Virus record (IMG/VR): IMGVR_UViG_3300024333_000012
Coordinates: 1-37,690 of that record
Length of the DNA stretch: 37,690 nt
Strand: one strand, 5' to 3'
Origin: a virus
Position 1 is the stretch's first letter; the number at the start of each line of letters is the position of its first letter. The notes under the pieces are model-generated. The model had not been told where the DNA came from, did not search any database, and saw only the letters and a program-made list of their open reading frames with translations. The position numbers were made by a program, and so were the translations under genes. Below, in pieces: positions 2,439 through 25,861 of the stretch.

Positions 2439-2847
2439 TTTCTTCCAGTTTCTTTGTTTCCTCTTTTTCGAGTTTCTCAATCAAGGTCTTTATCGCTTCA
2501 TTGGGATCGGCTTTCATGTTCATGTCTACATCCTGCTTATCTCTCCATTTCTCTCTTCGTCTGTTCTTGAGCCAAAATATCAATGACGTGGGATTCGGGG
2601 GATAATAAGTCCCATTAGGACCAGTAAAGCCCATTGCACTCTTGAACAAAGACCCTTCAACTTCATCATCTGGCTGTACTTTGCCTCTTTTTAGGGCATC
2701 CCGTAAGTCATCATGTTCTTTGAGATATTTATAAAAACAATTTCTGCTAAGACCAAGTTTTTTAAATATTTGCTCGTCTGTCATCCCCTCTTTGGCATAG
2801 GCCTCGACCAGCTCGGGGAAATTGTCTTGATATTTACTCTTTGCCAT
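2389..2847 (-). CDS. terS: Terminase small subunit-like HTH protein
   Basis: The likely role is recognition of phage DNA and recruitment of TerL. The ATG at 2847 (MAKSKYQ) gives 152 residues. It opens with a helix-turn-helix (DEQIFKKLGLSRNCFYKYL) and later has the IFWLKNRRREKWRDKQ block that marks this phage TerS group, then a charged, coiled C-terminus. It has no good ribosome site and overlaps the stop of the upstream gene by 14 nt, so translation is probably coupled. A longer reading to 2889 adds 14 residues that do not fit the family start. Position just before terL supports the call. Confidence 0.82.
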   Translation of the reverse strand: MAKSKYQDNFPELVEAYAKEGMTDEQIFKKLGLSRNCFYKYLKEHDDLRDALKRGKVQPDDEVEGSLFKSAMGFTGPNGTYYPPNPTSLIFWLKNRRREKWRDKQDVDMNMKADPNEAIKTLIEKLEKEETKKLEENAYLDGPRKKDIKQGI

Positions 2848-3190
2848 CGAATAGATACTCAATAAAAAACGAAATGAATGACCCGACAAATGATGCCAGA
2901 AAATCCTTTATACAGAATCCTTCCCCTCCTAAATATCCGTACCTTTCACAGTGCATAAATCCGTCTTTAATCTCCCAGGCCAAATTTAACCCGGCAGTTA
3001 TGAATAAAGATTCTACCGGACCGAACTTTTTCCTTGATAAAGCATATATCCCGCATCCTTCATAAAAATGCTCTTCTTTGTCATATTCAAAAACAATCCC
3101 GCTTTTACTCTCCCATGTACTATGAGATACCCTAAAATCTGCGAAAAGATTTGTACAAATTAAAATCAATGTAATTACAATGTATTTCAA
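2834..3190 (-). CDS. Small exported protein, YfiM/DUF2279-like
   Basis: The 118-residue protein starts at a TTG with a GAGGG site 6 nt upstream. Residues 1-18 form a Sec signal peptide (MKYIVITLILICTNLFA). The mature part contains EEHFYEGCGIYALSRK, AGLNLAWEIKDG and GEGFCIKDFLASFVGSFI. This pattern of a charged His motif, a WE-D motif and a D-A-G motif in membrane segments resembles YfiM-type periplasmic proteins often seen in phages and islands. The function of that family is unknown. The gene overlaps terS and is probably co-translated with it. Confidence 0.5.
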   Translation of the reverse strand: MKYIVITLILICTNLFADFRVSHSTWESKSGIVFEYDKEEHFYEGCGIYALSRKKFGPVESLFITAGLNLAWEIKDGFMHCERYGYLGGEGFCIKDFLASFVGSFISFFIEYLFDGKE

Positions 3191-3215
3191 ATCTTTCCCT
3201 CATAATTATAAATAT

Positions 3216-3704
3216 TCATTGGCAATTTCCAATAATATTTATTTTCGGTTTCATATATTTTATCATCAAACCCTCAAAATCCTCTTCATCCCATATTACA
3301 GCCAATTCCAATGCAGATAATTTTGCAACTGGGAAAATTGAGTATTCAGATTTTATAATTGGCAGACAATATTCGGCACAATCCACCCTTCCCCATAACT
3401 CTATAATCCAATCCATTGATTTTGGTAAATGTCGTACTATTTCTCCAGCAATATTCGAAATAGCCCTATATCTTCCATCCCCATTTTCCATAAAATGACA
3501 TTTATAATTACCAAACCACCTACTCCATATATTCCATCTGCTAATTCCAATATATAAAATAGTTTTGTTTTCGTCTTTTATTATATATAAACATTCATTT
3601 TTTTCCTTGTAATTCCTATCTGCAAAATCCTTAAATCTTAATTTATTGATACCCTTGAAATGATTATTAAAATAATTTTTATCTTGTTCTGAAATTGTTA
3701 TCAT
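3216..3704 (-). CDS. GIY-YIG-like nuclease
   Basis: A 162-residue protein with a recognisable GIY-YIG core: LYII at 39-42 and YIG at 51-53 replace the signature, followed by the conserved Arg at 62 (NIWSRW), a Glu at 144 (EGLMIKYM) and a terminal Asn in KPKIN. These residues form the single metal-ion active site in the family. No clear DNA-binding domain is fused, so it could be a free-standing homing endonuclease or a nick-making phage enzyme. The region is AT-richer than its neighbours, which fits a mobile insertion. It starts one base after the upstream stop and sits just before the packaging genes. Confidence 0.65.
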   Translation of the reverse strand: MITISEQDKNYFNNHFKGINKLRFKDFADRNYKEKNECLYIIKDENKTILYIGISRWNIWSRWFGNYKCHFMENGDGRYRAISNIAGEIVRHLPKSMDWIIELWGRVDCAEYCLPIIKSEYSIFPVAKLSALELAVIWDEEDFEGLMIKYMKPKINIIGNCQ

Positions 3705-3944
3705 TCAAATCTTCCCTTCATAAACAATATGTTGCACCATTCTCTCACAAAGACAGTATTTATTCGACAGGTCCGTTATAATATCAATCGACCTTTCCCC
3801 TTTTTCTTTCCGCTCTTGGAACTCCCTCTTGATTTGCCAATTCCGCGCCGAATGTTTGTCAATGTACTGCCTGTCAATCAGAAACTCCAAAAGTTCAGCC
3901 ATAGAGTATTTCGACAGGATCGGTTCAAGGTCTATCTCGTTCAA
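3705..3944 (-). CDS. Small HTH-like protein
   Basis: A 79-residue protein from a TTG start; the next in-frame ATG is codon 15. The C-terminal half (DIITDLSNKYCLCERMVQHIVYEG) has the spacing of a helix-turn-helix of the Mor/sigma-like kind, with a charged helical middle. No exact family is recognised. Its TGA abuts the ATG of the GIY-YIG gene, so the pair may be translated together. It could be a regulator of the late genes downstream, but this rests only on position and the HTH-like shape. Confidence 0.5.
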   Translation of the reverse strand: MNEIDLEPILSKYSMAELLEFLIDRQYIDKHSARNWQIKREFQERKEKGERSIDIITDLSNKYCLCERMVQHIVYEGKI

Positions 3945-4000: not shown

Positions 4001-4204
4001 TTAAATTGCGTTAGGCTTTTTCCCCTCTTTGCCGGGCATCGGATCATAAACCTTTATGATCTGATCCCTTTTGAGCTGAAACTGCTTTCCGTTAAAATCA
4101 CGCACAAAAACATTTTCCCCATTCGGAGATGCCGAAATATACTCGGCGGTCTCAGTCTTTGAAATCTTGTCCCGCCTGAAAATCACGTATCTAAGGTCAG
4201 ACAT
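4001..4204 (-). CDS. Hypothetical 67-residue protein
   Basis: Not recognised. The ATG at 4204 has a GGAGG site 5 nt upstream and overlaps the end of the Tat-signal gene by 8 nt. The protein is short, basic and beta-rich (SPNGENVFVRDFNGKQFQL), which could be a small SH3-like barrel. It has no membrane segment or cysteine pair. It is followed by a 56-nt gap before the HTH-like gene. Confidence 0.55.
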   Translation of the reverse strand: MSDLRYVIFRRDKISKTETAEYISASPNGENVFVRDFNGKQFQLKRDQIIKVYDPMPGKEGKKPNAI

Positions 4205-4574
4205 TTTTCCTCCATATTTTCTTAATTTTACGGCAAATTATATCTCTACTGAAATATTCATGGTATGATATATGATCGCTTATTTCAATTATTGCCATTT
4301 TTATTTTTTCTTTACCTATTTTCGCTTCAATGACATCCCCAACGTTCAATCTCATAATCTTTTCAGAAGGCCTTACAAATGTCAAATTATATTCTTGGTC
4401 GCAAGTATGATAACTGTATTGTTTTACCCATCCATCCGAAAATCCAGTCCAGGGTTCGCCTCCCGGTGGTATCAAATTATTATTTTTAATTTTGGGGACT
4501 GTCTTTAAAATAGATGCAGAAAAAGCAATCCCAAATAAACTCCCCAAAAAGTTACGTCTCGTCTGTTTTATCAT
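4197..4574 (-). CDS. Hypothetical protein with twin-arginine (Tat) signal
   Basis: A 125-residue protein starting at an ATG with a GGAGG site and an ATGA overlap with the upstream gene. The N-terminus TRRNFLGSLFGIAFSASIL fits the Tat consensus (RRxFL plus a mild hydrophobic stretch), so the folded protein would be sent to the periplasm. The mature part has a glycine-proline patch (PPGGEPWTG) and a beta-rich C-terminus, with no family I know. A Tat-exported product is unusual for a phage; it may alter the lysogen or host envelope, but that is inference. Confidence 0.55.
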   Translation of the reverse strand: MIKQTRRNFLGSLFGIAFSASILKTVPKIKNNNLIPPGGEPWTGFSDGWVKQYSYHTCDQEYNLTFVRPSEKIMRLNVGDVIEAKIGKEKIKMAIIEISDHISYHEYFSRDIICRKIKKIWRKNV

Positions 4575-4774: not shown

Positions 4775-4950
4775 GTATAAATCATCATGACAATCAAACA
4801 AAAAACAAAAGTTAATACCGAAAACCAAATTTTTCGCATAATCTCCTCAATCCCGCGGCTCCAATAAACCCATATAGATGCCCCAATGTCTATTCCAGAA
4901 CCAATCATAAACAGAATAACGGGAAGTTTCATGATGTCCCAACTAATCAT
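4771..4950 (-). CDS. Small membrane protein (two TM segments)
   Basis: A 59-residue protein if the ATG at 4950, which overlaps the upstream stop as TAATG, is used; an ATG at 4965 would add five residues. Two hydrophobic stretches (LPVILFMIGSGIDIGASIWVY and IWFSVLTFVFCLIVMMIY) flank a short charged loop. No family is recognised. It lies in a run of four tiny membrane proteins between the phosphoesterase and terminase modules, which suggests a shared envelope role. Confidence 0.5.
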   Translation of the reverse strand: MISWDIMKLPVILFMIGSGIDIGASIWVYWSRGIEEIMRKIWFSVLTFVFCLIVMMIYT

Positions 4951-5144
4951 TAAAAAAGTCCGCATTTTTCATCTTCTGTGTAATGTGTTATCTTAAAACC
5001 ATTTTTTTTGCGGGCATTTATAAAATGTCCATCTATAAATCTTGCCCATCCTCTCCGACACGTATTACAATCCAATACTTGATAAAAACCATTTTCATTC
5101 GGTATTTTTTTATCTTTGCCTTTTAATGGGTACCATATGCTCAT
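4950..5144 (-). CDS. Hypothetical 64-residue protein (DUF551-like)
   Basis: The ATG at 5144 overlaps the radical SAM stop as ATGA. The sequence begins SIWYPLKGKDKKIPNENGFYQV, then has a CNTC pair and a C-terminal acidic tail. The W-P-x-P-x-x-G-x-Y opening resembles the short DUF551-type modules found in phages. No enzymatic residues are seen. Tight coupling to the radical SAM gene makes it a possible partner or substrate, but nothing in the sequence proves this. Confidence 0.5.
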   Translation of the reverse strand: MSIWYPLKGKDKKIPNENGFYQVLDCNTCRRGWARFIDGHFINARKKNGFKITHYTEDEKCGLF

Positions 5145-5995
5145 TTGATTTCCTCAATGTCATTGTAAGCTGAACAGGTATTGCATTTGGGAAAATAGTC
5201 GCATTCTATAAATTCGTGCATAAAAGAATAATCATTAATCTCCTCCGCGTTCTTCCCGTTCAGTAAATGCACAAGGCAGCGATACATTTTCATGTCCGGG
5301 CCTATTATATGCTCATTTGTCCGGCATAAGACTCTCCGCGCCGGTCTATTCTTCATGTAGGCATTGTAAACTAATTCATCGGATGTTGCAAGAATACCCT
5401 CGCGCCGGAACCTGTCTAAATACATCCCCGTTGAAACCCCCTCAGCCCTGATTATATGGGGATTCCACAATATGCCTTTCGGTATGATTTTTGTCCGTTT
5501 TATATACTGATTAATTGGGACATCATTTAATGGATGATAGGACATTTTCAGGATGATATTATTATTATGCTTCTTGAGTTTGGAAATTTCGCCCAATCCA
5601 TCTTCTGGAAGATTCGTAAATATCAGAATATTAAAATTGTCCAAGCTGTTTATGACATCCGAAAAGCCTTCAATCAAGAAATGCTCCCCCCCGTTGAAAT
5701 AAAGCTCTCTAATTCCGTGCAGGCGATTTAGAAAATTCACCCATTCCGAAAGTTGACATGAATTGAACTTCGGGGATTTGTCAGCCAAAATTCTATTTAT
5801 GCAAAAATAACAGTTTAAATTACAGGCCAGGGTCATATAGATATGCAAATGATCCGCACCATTCATATCTATCGGTTCACCGTGTCGCCGTGCGGTCCGT
5901 TGTGACCTGAAACCACTGAAATCTTTCCTCAATTCATAGAGCATTAAAGGTATTGGGGAAATCCTCTTAGCTATCTTATTTTTCAAACTCGACAC
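5141..5995 (-). CDS. Radical SAM enzyme with SPASM-like cysteine tail
   Basis: Radical SAM enzymes use a [4Fe-4S] cluster to split S-adenosylmethionine into methionine and a 5'-deoxyadenosyl radical. The cluster motif CNLNCYFC (CxxxCxxC) lies at residues 58-65, and FNGGEH (the GGE motif that contacts SAM) at about 101-105. The C-terminus has extra cysteines (YRCLVH, then ECDYFPKCNTCS) like an auxiliary-cluster SPASM or twitch region, common in peptide-modifying members. I chose the GTG at 5995 because GGAGG sits 6 nt upstream; upstream ATGs overlap the previous gene more. Length (284 residues) is typical. It is 4 genes after a nucleosidase-fold gene. The substrate is unknown. Confidence 0.8.
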   Translation of the reverse strand: MSSLKNKIAKRISPIPLMLYELRKDFSGFRSQRTARRHGEPIDMNGADHLHIYMTLACNLNCYFCINRILADKSPKFNSCQLSEWVNFLNRLHGIRELYFNGGEHFLIEGFSDVINSLDNFNILIFTNLPEDGLGEISKLKKHNNNIILKMSYHPLNDVPINQYIKRTKIIPKGILWNPHIIRAEGVSTGMYLDRFRREGILATSDELVYNAYMKNRPARRVLCRTNEHIIGPDMKMYRCLVHLLNGKNAEEINDYSFMHEFIECDYFPKCNTCSAYNDIEEIK

Positions 5996-6245
5996 TAATA
6001 GCCTCCATTCCATACGTCTTTTTGTACCATCTGTCAAAGTCTTCTGGATTTAACGCCCTCAAAACAAATGGGGTCAACGCAAGATTATTCATGTTGTCAG
6101 CTCCAATAAATACCCGCCCTGTCCTGAATGAAATCAAAGGATTTGGCTCTCGTCCCGTGATCTTGTAAAAATTAGATTCAAACCAAACCATAACAGCAAC
6201 AAATAGAACAAAACCAAGGGTCATCTTTGCCTCAGTGTTCCGCAT
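5976..6245 (-). CDS. Small membrane-anchored protein
   Basis: An 89-residue protein with one N-terminal transmembrane segment (MTLGFVLFVAVMVWF) and a soluble remainder rich in aromatic and Arg residues. The ATG at 6245 overlaps the end of the upstream membrane gene by 14 nt; ATG codon 8 is an alternative. Its 3' end carries the GGAGG site and start of the radical SAM gene, so the two are likely coupled. No family is recognised. Confidence 0.5.
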   Translation of the reverse strand: MRNTEAKMTLGFVLFVAVMVWFESNFYKITGREPNPLISFRTGRVFIGADNMNNLALTPFVLRALNPEDFDRWYKKTYGMEAISVEFEK

Positions 6246-6438
6246 GGGATAACATCCTCATAAAAGCCAGAAATATTTTAAAAATAACACCAAAAAATAT
6301 ATAAACTTCAATTATAATCTGCCCGGCAAACATCCAGCCCCAACATCCCTTACCCGTTATTAAAAATAAAACCCCCATTAATACGGTGATGATTGATTGC
6401 AAAAGAATCGTTCTGATTTGAGGATTCATCAATTTCAT
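6232..6438 (-). CDS. Small membrane protein
   Basis: A 68-residue, strongly hydrophobic protein with two to three membrane segments (IRTILLQSIITVLMGVLFLI; WMFAGQIIIEVYIFFGVIF). The start overlaps the TGA of the nucleosidase-like gene as ATGA; a second ATG three codons on is possible. No family is recognised. Position between the nucleosidase-fold and radical SAM genes is the only functional hint. Confidence 0.5.
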   Translation of the reverse strand: MKLMNPQIRTILLQSIITVLMGVLFLITGKGCWGWMFAGQIIIEVYIFFGVIFKIFLAFMRMLSHAEH

Positions 6439-6959
6439 TCGATGGCCTTTTGAAAATAATCATTTAACTGGAACAATATTTCAATAAATTTTTTCTGCAT
6501 TCTCCTGTGTTGCAATTTTCTGGCAAGCCAATTTATTCCCTTAAAAGTTATTTTCTTTTCGCAGAAGTCTATCGGATAGCGCACTATGGTCAATCTATCG
6601 CCATAAAACCGTGCAATTCTCTCGGATTCCATGTCCACAATTTTTGCCAAAGGCCAGTATTGTCTGATAATATCCGCTGTCGCCTTATCATGCACCGGCA
6701 GCTCGGTCTCAATGACATAATCCACAAATTGAACGTCAAAGTGAGCCATCAAAGACCAGTTCAAATCAAGCCCCCATACCGCGGCCTTTTTGGGAACATA
6801 AAATTTATTTAAAGGCAGTTTCTTTAAAAGCCCGCATGACCCGAACAAGATCACCGTTTGGTCATTTGTTTTTATTGGTTGAGTGGATATTCTAATATGG
6901 AAATCCTTTTGATATTTCAAAAGGTGTTCGGCCTCGTTTTTGTTTGGAATTATTATCAT
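6435..6959 (-). CDS. Nucleoside phosphorylase/nucleosidase-fold protein (MTAN-like)
   Basis: Members of this fold cleave the glycosidic bond of nucleosides; the MTAN branch acts on methylthioadenosine, S-adenosylhomocysteine and 5'-deoxyadenosine. In the 174-residue protein I see the family landmarks in order: an early strand followed by acids (IIIPNKNEAEHLL), the phosphate/ribose loop FGSCG (39-43), the ribose-binding VDMES (108-112) with the catalytic-type Glu, and VRYPID (126-131), whose Asp matches the purine-binding Asp of VRAISD in MTAN. It is shorter than the usual 230 residues and lacks part of the middle. The ATG at 6959 overlaps the upstream stop (ATGA). A degenerate or non-catalytic member cannot be excluded. 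Confidence 0.55.
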   Translation of the reverse strand: MIIIPNKNEAEHLLKYQKDFHIRISTQPIKTNDQTVILFGSCGLLKKLPLNKFYVPKKAAVWGLDLNWSLMAHFDVQFVDYVIETELPVHDKATADIIRQYWPLAKIVDMESERIARFYGDRLTIVRYPIDFCEKKITFKGINWLARKLQHRRMQKKFIEILFQLNDYFQKAIE

Positions 6960-7150
6960 TTTACCGCCTTGTGATTTTCCCAAACCTTTTCAAATTCTTT
7001 CAGCCAATAATCCTCGGGAAAATGTCTCAGACACGCATAGGCCCGTGTCCTGATTTCCCCCTTTCGCATCGGACCTTCCCATTCCAAAAGGTCAAGAAGA
7101 AATCTTCTCGTATTTCTAATTGACCAGAATCTTTCACAATCCATTGTCAT
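6956..7150 (-). CDS. BPSL0761-like small protein
   Basis: A 64-residue protein beginning MTMDCERFWSIRNTRRFL and continuing with a helical stretch to ACLRHFP. The arrangement MTM-x-ER, TR-FL-x-x-L and A-x-LRHFP matches the BPSL0761 family, seen mainly in prophages and islands and of unknown function. A second ATG at codon 3 is possible. It overlaps the nucleosidase-like gene by 4 nt. Confidence 0.6.
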   Translation of the reverse strand: MTMDCERFWSIRNTRRFLLDLLEWEGPMRKGEIRTRAYACLRHFPEDYWLKEFEKVWENHKAVK

Positions 7151-7351: not shown

Positions 7352-8395
7352 CTAAACAAAAACCTTCAAGGCACTTGTAAGTCCTTTGTCTTTTTCAATG
7401 AAAATCAACGCCTGGCCGGGAAGTTCATATTTCGCTTTTATTTTTATCGCAAACATATTATATCCGATCAGGCAAGGGCAAGAAATCCAATATGCGGTAT
7501 GAATAAACTGATGCCAGTGCGCGAAAATATCCAAATATGCAACCTGTCCAGTATTCCATTCAGCAATAGCTTTATTTACCGGAATTGATATTCCCCCGAC
7601 ACCGCCCTGATATTTGACATAATCACCATGATGGCTCCTGATATTTTTACCGTAAATGTCCATCATGTTGAAATATCCCTCTGGTATGGAAAATGAAATC
7701 CCCGGCTCGGATTGTAAAATCCTGGATAAAATATGATACATCAGCCATTCATATGAATTTTCATTCCTTGTGCCGACCCGCATCTTATCAGTGGTCCGTC
7801 CGTGATTCCCGGTATCCCCTGCAATTATGATACTTTTAAATCCCCCCTCTTTTGCCATAAACTTGATCCCGCCCGCGAGATAGTCCATGACAAGTAAAAT
7901 TGTCTGTGTCGGATGAAGGGCATTTGATTCAACAAATTCCTCATGTATGAACCCCGTCATTATATCGCCTTTTATATTAATAATCAAATTGTCAATTTTG
8001 GTCAATTTTCTCCATAAATTTATCAATATCATCGCGTTTCTAAATGTATTTTTAACTCGCTTATCCAGTATTTTTAGATTGAATTCATTGAGATTATTTA
8101 CTTTCCTCGGATCAACCGTTTCCTCGGCGTGCCAGTCGCTCAAGGTTAAAATGGCCGTTGTCTCTGATTTACCACTTTTCTGTTCCGGCTCAATGGTTAT
8201 CGTTTGATGCAGTTGATGTAAATTTGCCACAACCTCAAGCTCTTTTTCCTTCTCAATAACAAGGTCTTGATAGTATTTTAAAAGTTTTTTTAACTCTCTC
8301 GTCTGCCCCTGGCCGGCGCGGATCATCTCCTCAAGTTTCGCCATGTCCTTCTGTTCTTTTGTCAGTTCCGGTCCAACCTCATTTAGATTTATCAT
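7352..8395 (-). CDS. Calcineurin-like metallophosphoesterase
   Basis: A 347-residue protein with the full two-metal phosphoesterase signature: DWH (87-89), KGD (142-144), GNHGR (196-200), SHHGD (254-258) and FAHWH (291-295). Residues 10-60 form a basic/acidic coiled coil that probably makes it oligomeric or binds a partner. Family members hydrolyse phosphodiesters in DNA, RNA or nucleotides; similar phage proteins resemble the SbcD-like or DNA-repair type, but no helicase or Rad50-like partner gene is nearby. The start overlaps the upstream gene by 17 nt. No regulation is visible. Confidence 0.8.
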   Translation of the reverse strand: MINLNEVGPELTKEQKDMAKLEEMIRAGQGQTRELKKLLKYYQDLVIEKEKELEVVANLHQLHQTITIEPEQKSGKSETTAILTLSDWHAEETVDPRKVNNLNEFNLKILDKRVKNTFRNAMILINLWRKLTKIDNLIINIKGDIMTGFIHEEFVESNALHPTQTILLVMDYLAGGIKFMAKEGGFKSIIIAGDTGNHGRTTDKMRVGTRNENSYEWLMYHILSRILQSEPGISFSIPEGYFNMMDIYGKNIRSHHGDYVKYQGGVGGISIPVNKAIAEWNTGQVAYLDIFAHWHQFIHTAYWISCPCLIGYNMFAIKIKAKYELPGQALIFIEKDKGLTSALKVFV

Positions 8396-8658: not shown

Positions 8659-9072
8659 CTATTTTATTCTCTCTTTGTGTGCTTTTCCCCTCCGCTCTAT
8701 TGCAAGGCATTTTTTCAGTGCGGCGATCATTGGTTTTGGATTATTGTGATATGTAAACTGATGATACAAAGAAGGACGTTCCATGACCGGTTCATTACAT
8801 CGAGTATCGTGTAGTTTGAACAACGGACAGTCTTCACAATCTCCACCATATATTCGGCATAGCGCACACGTCCTTGAATCTATCGGAAGCCCATCGTATG
8901 GGCGGTCGGTTGTATATAATACAGTAAGGTTATTTATTAAACAGTCATGCCTCCCCAGATTTTCGGGCAAAAGTCCAATCCATTTTCTTAAAGAGTGTGC
9001 AATTGCATCCTGTTTTTTAACCCTGTTGGCAGAGATTGGATAAAATTCTTTTTTCCAAGTTTTCAGGCTCAT
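8659..9072 (-). CDS. Cysteine-rich phage protein
   Basis: A 137-residue protein with a textbook AAGGAGG ribosome site. A cluster of cysteines (TCALCRIYGGDCEDCPLFKL and a further Cys nine residues on) suggests one zinc or iron site. The C-terminal NPKPMIAALKKCLAIE helix is conserved-looking. Similar CxxC...CxxCPL proteins are frequent in phage small-gene regions, with no known function. It follows the structured intergenic region 9073-9288. Confidence 0.6.
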   Translation of the reverse strand: MSLKTWKKEFYPISANRVKKQDAIAHSLRKWIGLLPENLGRHDCLINNLTVLYTTDRPYDGLPIDSRTCALCRIYGGDCEDCPLFKLHDTRCNEPVMERPSLYHQFTYHNNPKPMIAALKKCLAIERRGKAHKERIK

Positions 9073-9098
9073 TGGTTAATCCTCCTTTTTAAAATAAG

Positions 9099-9236
9099 GG
9101 AACACCTGCGATGTCTTTTTACGGTCTATTTACCAACCTTGCCAGGGTGCTTAATTGCCCTCATCGCTGGGCCAGTAGCCATAAGCCGGATTTCTCCGCG
9201 ATGTTGGCATATCGTACTGTTTAGCATAGGTGTTCC
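9099..9236 (-). repeat. Inverted-repeat-bounded intergenic element A
   Basis: GGAACACCT at 9099-9107 pairs perfectly with AGGTGTTCC at 9228-9236. The 120-nt interior, read on the minus strand, holds a small hairpin (CGGAGAAATCCG) and two copies of CATCGC that could each pair with one GCGATG, giving mutually exclusive folds. It may be a structured RNA or regulatory leader for the gene at 9072. It resembles no RNA family I can name. Confidence 0.35.
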
Positions 9237-9242
9237 TTTCAT
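9126..9242 (-). CDS. Possible 38-residue peptide inside an inverted-repeat element
   Basis: The ATG at 9242 is followed by an open frame ending in TAG; a second in-frame ATG (9227) lies directly after the left stem of the inverted repeat 9099-9107/9228-9236. The peptide is basic, with a single Cys-His pair (ICQHRGEIRL) and MATGPAMRAIKHPG. GGAGG is only 1 nt from the first ATG, but AGGA is well placed for the second. It may be a tiny gene or only the translatable part of a structured RNA. Confidence 0.3.
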   Translation of the reverse strand: MKGTPMLNSTICQHRGEIRLMATGPAMRAIKHPGKVGK

Positions 9243-9288
9243 GCCTCCCCGTAGTTCTTTTTGAAGTATTCTGGATTGATGTACCACT

Positions 9289-9501
9289 TTAGAATAATTC
9301 TGGTTTCTCCGAATCTTCGCTTATATATTTGATTGCCGTGTAACTGTTGGATTCAGAATAAACCATTGTCACTGATATTGTTTTTTCGTGCCAACATTTA
9401 ATACACCTAATCACGGTTTCGCAATTTCTGCATACAATTTCAAAAAAATTGACCGCACCACACGCGGAACATTTTCTATTCCCCTCGATAGTAATAAACA
9501 T
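9289..9501 (-). CDS. Small zinc-ribbon protein
   Basis: The ATG at 9501 has GGAGG 4 nt upstream and gives 70 residues. Two Cys pairs (CSACG and CRNC, then CIKC) make a zinc-ribbon-like knuckle. A longer open frame to 9648 would run through the neighbouring gene and is rejected. The role is probably nucleic-acid or protein binding, without a named family. Confidence 0.6.
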   Translation of the reverse strand: MFITIEGNRKCSACGAVNFFEIVCRNCETVIRCIKCWHEKTISVTMVYSESNSYTAIKYISEDSEKPELF

Positions 9502-9523
9502 AAAACCTCCCAACGTATCGCAG

Positions 9524-9751
9524 TTAATTCCCCCTTTGGGTAGCCTTACGTGCCACTTTCCGCTTTGGTGCATCTTTTGAGGCGTAATGGATGCAACAGA
9601 AATTTTGGCCGAAAAGCAAATACCCATCAAATGGAAAACCAGAAACATATCCTATTGAATTTATTTTTAAATGGTTAAAAACAACGGCATTGCATTCGCC
9701 ATACGAATATCCGGTTTTAGACCAGTGCTTGCACGTTTTGCAGGTGTTCAC
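9524..9751 (-). CDS. Small cysteine-rich phage protein
   Basis: A 75-residue protein from a GTG start with GGGAGGGG upstream and a GTGA overlap with the preceding short gene. It opens NTCKTCKHW and has GEC and FCCIHY further on, the usual pattern of small phage zinc proteins (CxxC-x-W ... GxC ... CxH). The C-terminus is basic (KRKVARKATQRG). Function unknown. Confidence 0.6.
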   Translation of the reverse strand: MNTCKTCKHWSKTGYSYGECNAVVFNHLKINSIGYVSGFPFDGYLLFGQNFCCIHYASKDAPKRKVARKATQRGN

Positions 9752-21958: not shown

Positions 21959-24900
21959 TCATTTCATTTTTATTTTCTTTGGATCAATATAAATTTTATC
22001 AATATACGCCTTGACGTTTGCAAATGTCTGCGTTTCGCTTGTCACGGGATACCTGGGCTGATTGTATTTTCGTATCCCGCGACAAAACGGATAAGTTGTT
22101 CCATCAAAACCCATTTCATAGCCCTCGAATCGTAAAGCGTCACATGATTCCTGAGAACTCGCTCCACCGGGCCAGGCAAATACTCTGGGAACAGAATGAG
22201 TATATCTCAGATTTCTCGCTTCCGTGCTGTCGAAATTGACATTAAAAAGCCAATATGAAATTGTGTCATGTTCATCATGCGCGAAACTATGAGAAATAAT
22301 ATCCCATCCGGCATCTTCTGTAACCTTTACAGAATCCCACTCGGTATCGCTATCAAGAGCAGTATAGTTAATCGCGCAGATTGGGTAAGTATCTTCTGCC
22401 TGGAAATCATCCCTGAAATTATAATAATTTCTAAAACTGTAATCATCTAAACTGAAAGCATATGAATTAAGAGGAGGTTCTTTTCCCTTCCAAATATCCA
22501 GCAAATCCTTCATTTTCAGGTTGACAAATCCAAGACTATCCAAGTAACTCATTATCCTGTGGTATCTGGTAGTTGACAGATCGCCAAGATAAACATTTGA
22601 AGCGTTATGGGTAGTATCGTCACCCTCTTTTAGATAATGGGCTGCCATAATAAACGGACGTGGCGGCCTGTAAAAATATGGATACAATCTAATGTTTTTA
22701 ATTTGTCCGGGGAATCTGGTTGTCCCGTCCGGCTTACCCCCGAACGTCACATATCCGCCCCAGGAAAATTCCGACACCATTTCATCATCATTTTCGTTGA
22801 CTTCCCATCCGTCAATATAAAGAGATATTTCCTGGGTATTTCCGTCAAAGCAAAGCCTGAATTCTTTTTTCTGACAAATGCTTGACCTTTCGAGAAATTT
22901 CGGCCAGACATCAAATCGTACAGTATCTTCGGTATTCATCAGATTTATAGATTTTTCATACGCCAGATACCGGACATCTATATCGTCCGCTGCAAGAGCA
23001 TCCGCTATTTCATCGGAATAATTATACGACGCATTACTCAGGGAAACCCTGAGAATGTCTGCGCCCTGATCCCATACCACCAAACTGTCATCTCTTATAT
23101 AAAAATAGGCCGGGGTGTCTACGACTCCCGTATATCTAATTCCCATTGCCGCAACATCCCTGATCCAAGGGGCCATTTTTTCGACATTATATCCCAAAGA
23201 ATCTGTTCCGTAATCATTCCCATATCCATATCTAAAGAAAACATTTCCCCTGAATCTCATATTATAATCAGAAGTCGATTCGTTCCTGAACGTATTCAAA
23301 TCAATGTACATTCCATTTGTTCTTGTTGAACTATTGGATGTCCCGGAACCAATTTGAAGCACCCTGAATGTACCGACTGAATCATAAAGGTCTATATTGG
23401 GAATCACGTCAAATGCTATCGTACCGATCTTATCAGGGAAATAATCCCAAAACGGAACCTTTACAATACCATTCGTTCCAGCCATCCATGCTGAAAAACT
23501 GGTCGATGCGGTAAATCCAGCATTCGCCAATTCCACACTGTCCAGGCATGACAAATTGAGCGGCAAATTTTTTGCTGTTATATAATCTTCCGCCCGGATG
23601 TTTTTTTCAAAATAGTTTTTCCCTCCCTTGCTGTTAATGCTGTAATCAGTCGCATCCCCATGAATGAATACAGGGCTTCCGCGTTTGCTGTTCTGCACTG
23701 ATGCCAATGTTGACGGAAGGTCCGCTATGACAATATTATCAATTTTGAAATCCGTGTTATAGGTGGAACCAATGGTAATATATGATATACTGTCATGGTT
23801 CGCCAGAGCTGAGAGATTTCCCGAATAGGCCAGGGTGCTGTCAATATACCATTCCACTGTTTCATCATAAACATAGAAATCGTGATGCGTCCACGTAGAA
23901 TCACCCGCCGGGAGATGATAAGTCCTGCGCGCCTGATAATATGTAGTTTCGTTCTGCTTGACTCCGTATTCAAAATAGGAAATCCTGTTCTGGCAGACAT
24001 ATCCCCTGGGTGATGAAGAAGGAATATATCCCTGAAGATTAACAAAGAAAATTTCCTGGTCTGTTATTAATTTAGAATCAAAACTCAATTTATAATAATT
24101 GTCTTTCATCCCTTTGTTAATATAGAATACAGGCGATTTCGCGGGAGTAAGGGTTCCTTCAACAAACATAATACTGTCATGCGTTGCATTTTCATAAATA
24201 ATGTCCAGTGAGCCCGCATAGGCTTTTATCCCCTTGTATTCCCCGGCATTGAAATTATTACTGAAACTGCATATACTTCCCTCGCCTATCTGATACCCGT
24301 CACCTTCGAGTCCATTATTAAAATATGCTCTGTCTTTATTATAGATATTTTCCCCGTTCAATGCCGTCAAGGTATCAGTTCTGGTGTCTTTGGAATAGGA
24401 CACATCCGAAAGAAGACCAGATTTTGTGGCAAAACCGGTATTTCCATTGATTCTTAAATCATATAAATAATTTGTGCTATACAGAGTAATCCTGACCTTT
24501 CCGGTCGTCAATGTCTGGGTGGCATCTTTTCTTCTTGCTTCGCCCATATAATAGAAATTACTGTCATTGTCTGTTGACCACAAACTCAAAATCATGTCAT
24601 GGTTATTCACTGTGAGTTTAAAATAATACCATTCGTTTGTTGATGTCTTTATTGCAGTCTGGGTATTCCCCCCGCCCGTGCTGTCTGCTATCTGCAAATA
24701 CGTCTCATATACTTTGGCATTGGTTCCGCCTGAACCGTATTCCGGATAAATAAGCAAAATATTTGCACCCGAAACATTTTTCACAAAACCCGATATATCT
24801 GTTGGCAAATATGTCCCGGTGATGTCAAAAGTATAGTTCCCGCCAGTTGCCCGGAGCGCACGTCTGGTGTTTCCTTGGAAAGTAACTTCTGGTATGGTAT

Positions 24901-25852
24901 AGGTTCCGCTTACTGTTGTCATTCCGGTTATTAAACTGTCATCAAAAGCATCCGTAAAGGAAAGAGATGTTGCATTTAGCAACGCCCTTCCGTTTCCAAA
25001 GTTCTGATGCGTCAAATCTGGATCGAGTACTTGCGGTTTGTCATCACCATCCGTGTCCGTCACATCCCGAAAATCATCCAAGTCTATAGTCAGCCACCTA
25101 TTAAGAAAATCCACTAATGGACCACTAACATCTTCCTGATTTCCTCCTGTGTTTTGCTGTGCCAAAATAAAAATATCAGGATCACCTATGGTTGCAGAAA
25201 TATTGTAAGTTGTATAATAAACAGTAAGCGAACTTCCATTATTATCAATTTCCGACATCTTGATATATGCGGTTGTTGCAGTGCTATTATTCAAATCAAT
25301 ATTTTTTGCCCCGGAGGTCGCATCAACAAGATATTCATATTTGTTTGTAACAGGATTATAAAGAAGCAATTTGCCAGTCCATGACAGTCTAATGTTATTT
25401 GCCCCGCCATAATCTTCAGTAATGGAAGCATTCGTCACGGTATTTGTCATAAGCAAAAGCTGATCCCTGAACACCGCAGACCTGACATCGCTTTCAAGAC
25501 CCGCATAATTTATATACCCGTCAGCATCTGAATCCGCTATTCTTCGCCATGCCGTCACATATTCAATGGAATCCTTTACTAAAAGTGTAACATTCTGACC
25601 GCCCAATCTCAAAAGAGACATCCTGAGGCTGTCGAATGTCGTGACTTCGCATGAGTCCCTTATTGCAGTGATCATGTCATTCCAATGAAATTTTCTTGTA
25701 TATTTTGTTGCTCCGGATTTACAAGTCACTGGAAATTGAATTGAATCGACTCCCGTCGGAGAAGTTAATTCGACAAGTTCGCTAATCCTTACCTGCCCCC
25801 AAAGAGGCAAGGCAAAAATACAGATTAAAAAAACAGCAGATAATTTTTTCAT
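21959..25852 (-). CDS. Tail fibre with signal peptide and C-terminal polysaccharide deacetylase
   Basis: A 1297-residue protein; the ATG at 25852 has AGGAG 6 nt upstream. Residues 1-20 look like a Sec signal (MMKKLSAVFLICIFALPLWG), followed by RISELVELTSPTGVDSIQFP, a tail-fibre N-terminal pattern. Long repetitive beta-rich middle parts look like LamG/concanavalin modules (YVTFGGKPDGTTRFPGQIKN). The last about 240 residues are a CE4 deacetylase: FSLDDYS, SHSFAHDEH (metal His pair at about 1188/1192) and VFAWPGG. It lies at the end of the late operon and probably binds and trims surface glycans. Confidence 0.75.
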   Translation of the reverse strand: MKKLSAVFLICIFALPLWGQVRISELVELTSPTGVDSIQFPVTCKSGATKYTRKFHWNDMITAIRDSCEVTTFDSLRMSLLRLGGQNVTLLVKDSIEYVTAWRRIADSDADGYINYAGLESDVRSAVFRDQLLLMTNTVTNASITEDYGGANNIRLSWTGKLLLYNPVTNKYEYLVDATSGAKNIDLNNSTATTAYIKMSEIDNNGSSLTVYYTTYNISATIGDPDIFILAQQNTGGNQEDVSGPLVDFLNRWLTIDLDDFRDVTDTDGDDKPQVLDPDLTHQNFGNGRALLNATSLSFTDAFDDSLITGMTTVSGTYTIPEVTFQGNTRRALRATGGNYTFDITGTYLPTDISGFVKNVSGANILLIYPEYGSGGTNAKVYETYLQIADSTGGGNTQTAIKTSTNEWYYFKLTVNNHDMILSLWSTDNDSNFYYMGEARRKDATQTLTTGKVRITLYSTNYLYDLRINGNTGFATKSGLLSDVSYSKDTRTDTLTALNGENIYNKDRAYFNNGLEGDGYQIGEGSICSFSNNFNAGEYKGIKAYAGSLDIIYENATHDSIMFVEGTLTPAKSPVFYINKGMKDNYYKLSFDSKLITDQEIFFVNLQGYIPSSSPRGYVCQNRISYFEYGVKQNETTYYQARRTYHLPAGDSTWTHHDFYVYDETVEWYIDSTLAYSGNLSALANHDSISYITIGSTYNTDFKIDNIVIADLPSTLASVQNSKRGSPVFIHGDATDYSINSKGGKNYFEKNIRAEDYITAKNLPLNLSCLDSVELANAGFTASTSFSAWMAGTNGIVKVPFWDYFPDKIGTIAFDVIPNIDLYDSVGTFRVLQIGSGTSNSSTRTNGMYIDLNTFRNESTSDYNMRFRGNVFFRYGYGNDYGTDSLGYNVEKMAPWIRDVAAMGIRYTGVVDTPAYFYIRDDSLVVWDQGADILRVSLSNASYNYSDEIADALAADDIDVRYLAYEKSINLMNTEDTVRFDVWPKFLERSSICQKKEFRLCFDGNTQEISLYIDGWEVNENDDEMVSEFSWGGYVTFGGKPDGTTRFPGQIKNIRLYPYFYRPPRPFIMAAHYLKEGDDTTHNASNVYLGDLSTTRYHRIMSYLDSLGFVNLKMKDLLDIWKGKEPPLNSYAFSLDDYSFRNYYNFRDDFQAEDTYPICAINYTALDSDTEWDSVKVTEDAGWDIISHSFAHDEHDTISYWLFNVNFDSTEARNLRYTHSVPRVFAWPGGASSQESCDALRFEGYEMGFDGTTYPFCRGIRKYNQPRYPVTSETQTFANVKAYIDKIYIDPKKIKMK

Positions 25853-25861
25853 CACAAACTC

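Follow-up and report, generated by a model that had tools for sequence, protein, structure and literature searches.

The locus studied here raises the question of whether a phage carries, beside a radical SAM enzyme, a nucleosidase of its own that removes the waste product of that enzyme. The initial annotation had proposed such a partnership for two genes in an accessory region of the window, the whole stretch of viral DNA that we analyzed (37,690 nucleotides). It is known that 5'-deoxyadenosine inhibits radical SAM enzymes and that enzymes of the MTA-nucleosidase type clear it (PMC8102628).

The gene row and its phage

The window is a linear record, and the phage that hosts the gene row is integrase-bearing. 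On the minus strand, a run of small overlapping genes lies between a phosphoesterase/exonuclease-like gene (7352-8395; E = 1e-33 against a PHROG exonuclease) and the terminase genes (2389-2889 and 990-2480). In the order of transcription, the run includes 6956-7150, 6435-6959, 6232-6438, 5976-6245, 5141-6037, and 4950-5144, and neighbouring genes share a few bases where one stops and the next starts. The two putative enzymes are a compact 174-residue protein (6435-6959), probably a nucleosidase with the phosphorylase fold (MTAN/HpnG-like), and a radical SAM enzyme of the putative twitch type (5141-6037). The first of the genes listed encodes 64 residues (6956-7150), and its stop overlaps the start of the 174-residue gene; the last one encodes a 64-residue peptide immediately downstream of the radical SAM gene (4950-5144).

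Small membrane proteins had been described between the enzyme genes. Both of the intervening proteins, one of 68 residues with two hydrophobic segments (6232-6438; a 4-base overlap with the 174-residue gene) and one of 89 residues with a single N-terminal hydrophobic segment (5976-6245; overlapping the radical SAM gene), agree with this description, but the enzyme genes, said to be three genes apart, have two genes between them. No Pfam or PHROG family was found for these two proteins or for the product of 6956-7150. For 4950-5144, previously called DUF551-like, Pfam gave only a chance-level match to zf-UBP, and that name was not retained. The suggestion that the membrane proteins or this peptide are substrates of the radical SAM enzyme was not supported.

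One other viral contig (L001) is 99.8% identical to the window over 8 kb and contains the sole other copy of the radical SAM gene and of the 174-residue gene, both 100% identical at the DNA level. At 8660-9722 of the window, L001 has about 200 bases in place of about 1060, an insertion or deletion adjoining the gene row. In a 90%-identical relative (L005), about 290 bases take the place of 2700-3699. Further genes on the minus strand of the window encode a GIY-YIG nuclease-like protein (3216-3704; Pfam E = 0.001), a 125-residue protein without a family that starts with a twin-arginine-like signal, TRRNFLGSL (4197-4574), and a 1298-residue tail-region protein (21959-25855) that combines a polysaccharide deacetylase domain at its C-terminus with a lectin-like domain.

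The radical SAM enzyme and its family

The 298-codon frame 5141-6037 (minus strand) contains the motifs LACNLNCYFC and FNGGEH and a Cys-rich tail. The longest frame opens at a TTG (6037); as read from the sequence, a GTG (5995) with GGAGG six bases upstream is the more probable start and would give about 284 residues. The earlier reading of this gene as a radical SAM enzyme with an extra-cysteine tail was borne out. The expected Pfam family, PF04055, matched with E = 5e-4, although under its curated cut-off; PHROG radical SAM families matched with E = 3e-8; several NCBIfam radical SAM models matched as well (best E = 4e-6), none reaching its own cut-off; and the nearest solved sequence in the PDB was the SkfB structure (E = 1e-5). 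In a 12-row alignment, the core residues C72, C76, and C79 (CxxxCxxC) and G116-G117-E118 (GGE) are invariant, and so are five tail cysteines at 238, 254, 279, 285, and 288. The tail follows the pattern C238-x15-C254 ... C279-x5-C285-x2-C288, with a Gly five residues before the second Cys in most members and a Met in the window. The SPASM motif is CX9-15GX4C-gap-CX2CX5CX3C-gap-C, of which the twitch motif is a truncated version (PMC6231123); the Pfam SPASM model did not match the window enzyme. Judged by its sequence, 5141-6037 is a radical SAM enzyme and a putative twitch-type auxiliary-cluster enzyme. A structure predicted from three alignment rows had a pLDDT of 40, too poor for a fold search.

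Scanning bacterial genomes with a search steered to the motifs yielded three relatives; masked-copy alignments (A1 and A2) served in it only to direct the pattern search to functional motifs. Two of the three align over most of their length, including the tail: a 296-residue protein (L037) and the C-terminal part of a longer protein (L036). An alignment of these two with the window enzyme was then used as the query and gave 12 further viral contigs from IMG/VR (L101-L112). The family loci considered below are these 12 and nine bacterial loci (L036, L037, and L113-L119). The members align from the core to the tail, and the core and tail cysteines are all invariant. When each sequence was left out of the profile used to score it, the window enzyme obtained 99 bits (profile of its 11 relatives), the L036 domain 110, and the other phage members 202-381. 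The companion radical SAM enzymes of the same loci reached at most 38 bits against the family profile. By these scores, the window enzyme belongs, though divergent, to a single well-defined radical SAM family that has no name. Among viral contigs and isolated phages, close relatives of the radical SAM enzyme and the 174-residue protein were found in the near-identical L001 and otherwise nowhere, and in phages related through the terminase or the phosphoesterase, the radical SAM and nucleosidase motifs were absent from real-looking frames.

A thiamine-diphosphate (ThDP) enzyme, identified with Pfam, lies near the radical SAM gene in all 12 viral contigs, which amount to about nine independent phage cases since L106 and L108-L110 are nearly identical, and in eight of the nine bacterial loci. 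In the viral contigs, it has one of three architectures: a split E1 alpha/beta, a split transketolase, or a single acetolactate-synthase-like protein. A second radical SAM enzyme is present in 11 of these contigs, the twelfth being a 4.3-kb fragment, and glycosyltransferases are often found alongside (for example, L105:763-3804 and L106:3683-8846). In L105, the three genes lie at 763-1880 (ThDP enzyme), 1846-2697 (radical SAM enzyme of the family), and 2737-3804 (second radical SAM enzyme). The PHROGs entry for the ThDP proteins of this cassette reads unknown function. A bacterial-genome contig (L127) also has a cassette of radical SAM and acetolactate-synthase-like genes and appears to be a prophage, as judged from large terminase- and portal-like frames read from the sequence.

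The family, present in eight of 297 genomes of the phylum to which L036 belongs, has its bacterial members in deltaproteobacterial glycan/LPS loci. In a Pseudodesulfovibrio MAG, a radical SAM domain of this kind forms one fusion protein with a glycosyltransferase (L036:4627-6747) in a sialic-acid-type locus, with NeuB-like and CMP-sialate synthetase-like genes as neighbours. The L037 gene has heptosyltransferase-like, glycosyltransferase, and E1 genes nearby; in both loci, the names of the neighbours were read from sequence.

The phage cassette of a twitch radical SAM enzyme, a ThDP enzyme, and a second radical SAM enzyme is thus recurrent and, as far as our searches show, undescribed. In pelagimyophages, a variable region reportedly takes up cassettes with radical SAM genes (PMC7029224), and our literature search found no paper describing a phage cassette that combines radical SAM and ThDP enzymes. 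The cassette parallels bacterial LPS/O-glycan loci and predicts phages that make or alter unusual branched or oxidised sugars. It was unexpected and is a more reproducible discovery than the enzyme pair from which the analysis started, and the window holds just one of its genes: against a ThDP enzyme in 20 of the 21 other family loci, neither a ThDP enzyme nor a second radical SAM enzyme was found in the window. Portal and capsid genes were not seen in it either; thus, part of the phage genome is apparently absent from the window, and the absent part could hold further cassette genes.

The 174-residue protein and the phosphorylase fold

The 174-codon frame 6435-6959 (minus strand) is preceded by a ribosome-binding site, AAGGCGG, and contains the motifs GSCG, VDMES, and VRYPID, on which its assignment to the MTAN/phosphorylase fold had been based. 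That assignment is probable: the motifs and some weak but specific profile matches speak for it, but the protein lies below every family cut-off. No Pfam or PHROG family matched beyond chance level, and PF01048 gave no match at E <= 10. Among 18950 NCBIfam models, the sole match was an MTA/SAH nucleosidase (NF005522; E = 0.051), which was collinear and scored 13 bits against a cut-off of 161.

For comparison, phosphorylase-fold nucleosidases were collected from genomes and made into profiles (sets of nine and 55 sequences, and sub-groups). With hhalign, the protein scored 32.6 against the nine-nucleosidase profile (probability 45%), compared with 22.3 for the best of 200 shuffles and 24.0 for the best of 112 other natural proteins, so that it ranked first among 113. 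The hypothesis had been picked from the same motifs, which makes these tests less independent than their figures suggest. Against the 55-sequence profile, it scored 26.0, 150 shuffles reached at most 15.8, and one long ThDP enzyme reached 25.7. In a single-sequence search, the HMM of the 55 sequences matched, in order, residues 32-47 (GSCG) and 88-134 (VDMES and VRYPID) with E = 1.6e-5. With the HpnG and Asp-type sub-group profiles, none of the shuffles and none of the 151 natural proteins scored as high as the protein. With the Asn-type (futalosine hydrolase) profile, its score was in the range of the shuffles. A control profile, made from proteins of the MTA-phosphorylase type, did not match. 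Where there was a match, the hhalign probability was 11-45%, and the sub-profile matches were local.

The protein is collinear with the MTAN/HpnG branch over GSCG, PVHDK, VDMES, and VRYPID and keeps the catalytic-type Asp; the usual Gly-Ile-Gly segment of the fold is missing. E111 and D131 align with the Glu of MEx and the Asp of RxxxD, which are catalytic and base/ribose-binding residues of PF01048 nucleosidases, and E9 or E11 is a candidate, by eye only, for the N-terminal Glu. Such nucleosidases use Asp for adenine and Asn for 6-oxopurines. Because Asp is kept at the adenine-specific position, where the futalosine-hydrolase type has Asn, the protein is probably of the adenine type.

It may be asked whether this likeness arose by chance in a protein without the phosphorylase fold. 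The silence of Pfam and PHROG, the hhalign probabilities of at most 45%, the shuffle-like score with the Asn-type profile, and the long ThDP enzyme that nearly equals the protein with the 55-sequence profile are consistent with chance. The first profile, however, was matched as well by none of the 200 shuffles and none of the 112 natural proteins, and the matched segments are correctly ordered and contain the functional residues. We regard a chance likeness as rather unlikely, and the phosphorylase fold as probable. Two other leads were set aside: short matches to residues 93-138 recur in an unrelated family of proteins of about 550 residues, and a PDB match to quinolinate synthase (E = 0.004) covers a single 48-residue stretch (query 111-158), is otherwise unsupported, and was judged to be chance. 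Searches of genomes and plasmids with the protein gave nothing above chance, and its AlphaFold model, made without homologues, had a pLDDT of 36, too poor for a fold search.

Relationship of the two enzymes and comparison with known systems

The two genes were seen together in this phage and L001 only. If they form a dedicated pair, the nucleosidase would destroy 5'-deoxyadenosine and so free the phage radical SAM enzyme from inhibition by its product. The common strand and overlapping row, the probable nucleosidase fold with its adenine-type Asp, and the known inhibition and clearance (PMC8102628) are consistent with this. The co-occurrence that had been anticipated in related phages, however, did not appear. 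PF01048 was detected in none of the 12 viral family loci, where ThDP enzymes adjoin instead, and in none of eight more phage records including L001; several of these records are fragments, and an equally divergent nucleosidase could escape a search that also misses the window's own 174-residue protein. The bacterial family loci examined had no phosphorylase-like neighbours, and no neighbouring gene of the relatives scored like the 174-residue protein against the nine-sequence profile. Moreover, PF01048 genes are present in 13 of 14 control genomes, so that the host would usually supply the clearance, and while several radical SAM families occur in phages, the phage-collection records with MTAN were few (14), several of which resemble bacterial contigs or have no annotation. 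We therefore consider a dedicated pair unlikely. The only positive support for a putative waste-removal partner belonging to the phage is the shared gene row; the idea is chemically sensible. If the pair is real, the phage itself would manage the product inhibition of its radical SAM enzyme, which would imply that one reaction carries a large flux in the infected or lysogenic state.

A known precedent for a different kind of cooperation is the hopanoid pair of HpnH, a radical SAM enzyme, and HpnG, a phosphorylase-fold nucleosidase. In a tandem of this kind, the radical SAM enzyme would attach an adenosyl group and the adenine would then be removed, leaving a ribosylated product. The 174-residue protein indeed fits the HpnG/MTAN (Asp-type) profiles better than the futalosine-hydrolase ones, but no HpnH model was among the NCBIfam matches, the tail of the radical SAM enzyme resembles the twitch type, and the relatives show no co-occurrence; such a tandem is very unlikely here. 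Taking both possibilities together, we find it improbable that the phage radical SAM enzyme has its own putative minimal adenine nucleosidase, whether for clearing 5'-deoxyadenosine or for processing an adenosylated product. If it did, this would be an unusually small phosphorylase-fold nucleosidase in a phage pair of a kind not described before.

The two genes may instead be functionally unrelated accessory genes that share a row by chance, the 174-residue protein acting as a small enzyme in its own right or as a factor directed at the host. The restriction of the pair to this phage and L001 favours this, as does the way in which phage accessory regions gather unrelated genes, with the adjoining region varying between close relatives; joint expression is suggested by the overlaps and the common direction, but nearly every gene hereabouts has such overlaps. 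We put this possibility only slightly short of an even chance. Our judgments are not mutually exclusive, and the question of the fold is separate from that of the pairing.

The explanation that we prefer, at about even odds, is that an overlapping accessory row of an integrase-bearing phage encodes a glycan-family twitch radical SAM enzyme acting on a host sugar, together with a compact putative nucleosidase. The radical SAM enzyme would most likely oxidise or rearrange a host sugar or sugar nucleotide, with its auxiliary cluster as an electron acceptor in the manner of BtrN, a twitch dehydrogenase of an amino-cyclitol in which the auxiliary cluster is the probable electron acceptor (PMC9012708). 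The outcome would be an altered surface glycan on the infected or lysogenic host. Because the window is without a ThDP enzyme and a second radical SAM enzyme, this glycan-pathway reading is by family only, and the window enzyme is divergent within that family. The nucleosidase-like protein may act on a small nucleoside, for which 5'-deoxyadenosine is a candidate, and cut its N-glycosidic bond.

Among known systems, the window enzyme shares the CxxxCxxC core and C-terminal cysteines of a putative single-auxiliary-cluster kind with the twitch enzymes BtrN, MoaA, and SkfB, but its C-terminal part has no sequence match to theirs and all NCBIfam models stay under their cut-offs. With the unnamed family of phages and LPS/O-glycan loci, it aligns from core to tail, whereas the relatives' ThDP enzyme and usual second radical SAM enzyme are missing. 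The 174-residue protein has GSxG, VDMES, and R-x-x-x-D collinear with MTAN, HpnG, and futalosine hydrolase (PF01048), but it is shorter than most of these, apart from its missing Gly-Ile-Gly segment and sub-threshold scores. NCBIfam calls neither phage protein HpnH or HpnG, and the phage row is without a hopanoid context; what the row has in common with that pair is the combination of a radical SAM enzyme and a probable phosphorylase-fold nucleosidase.
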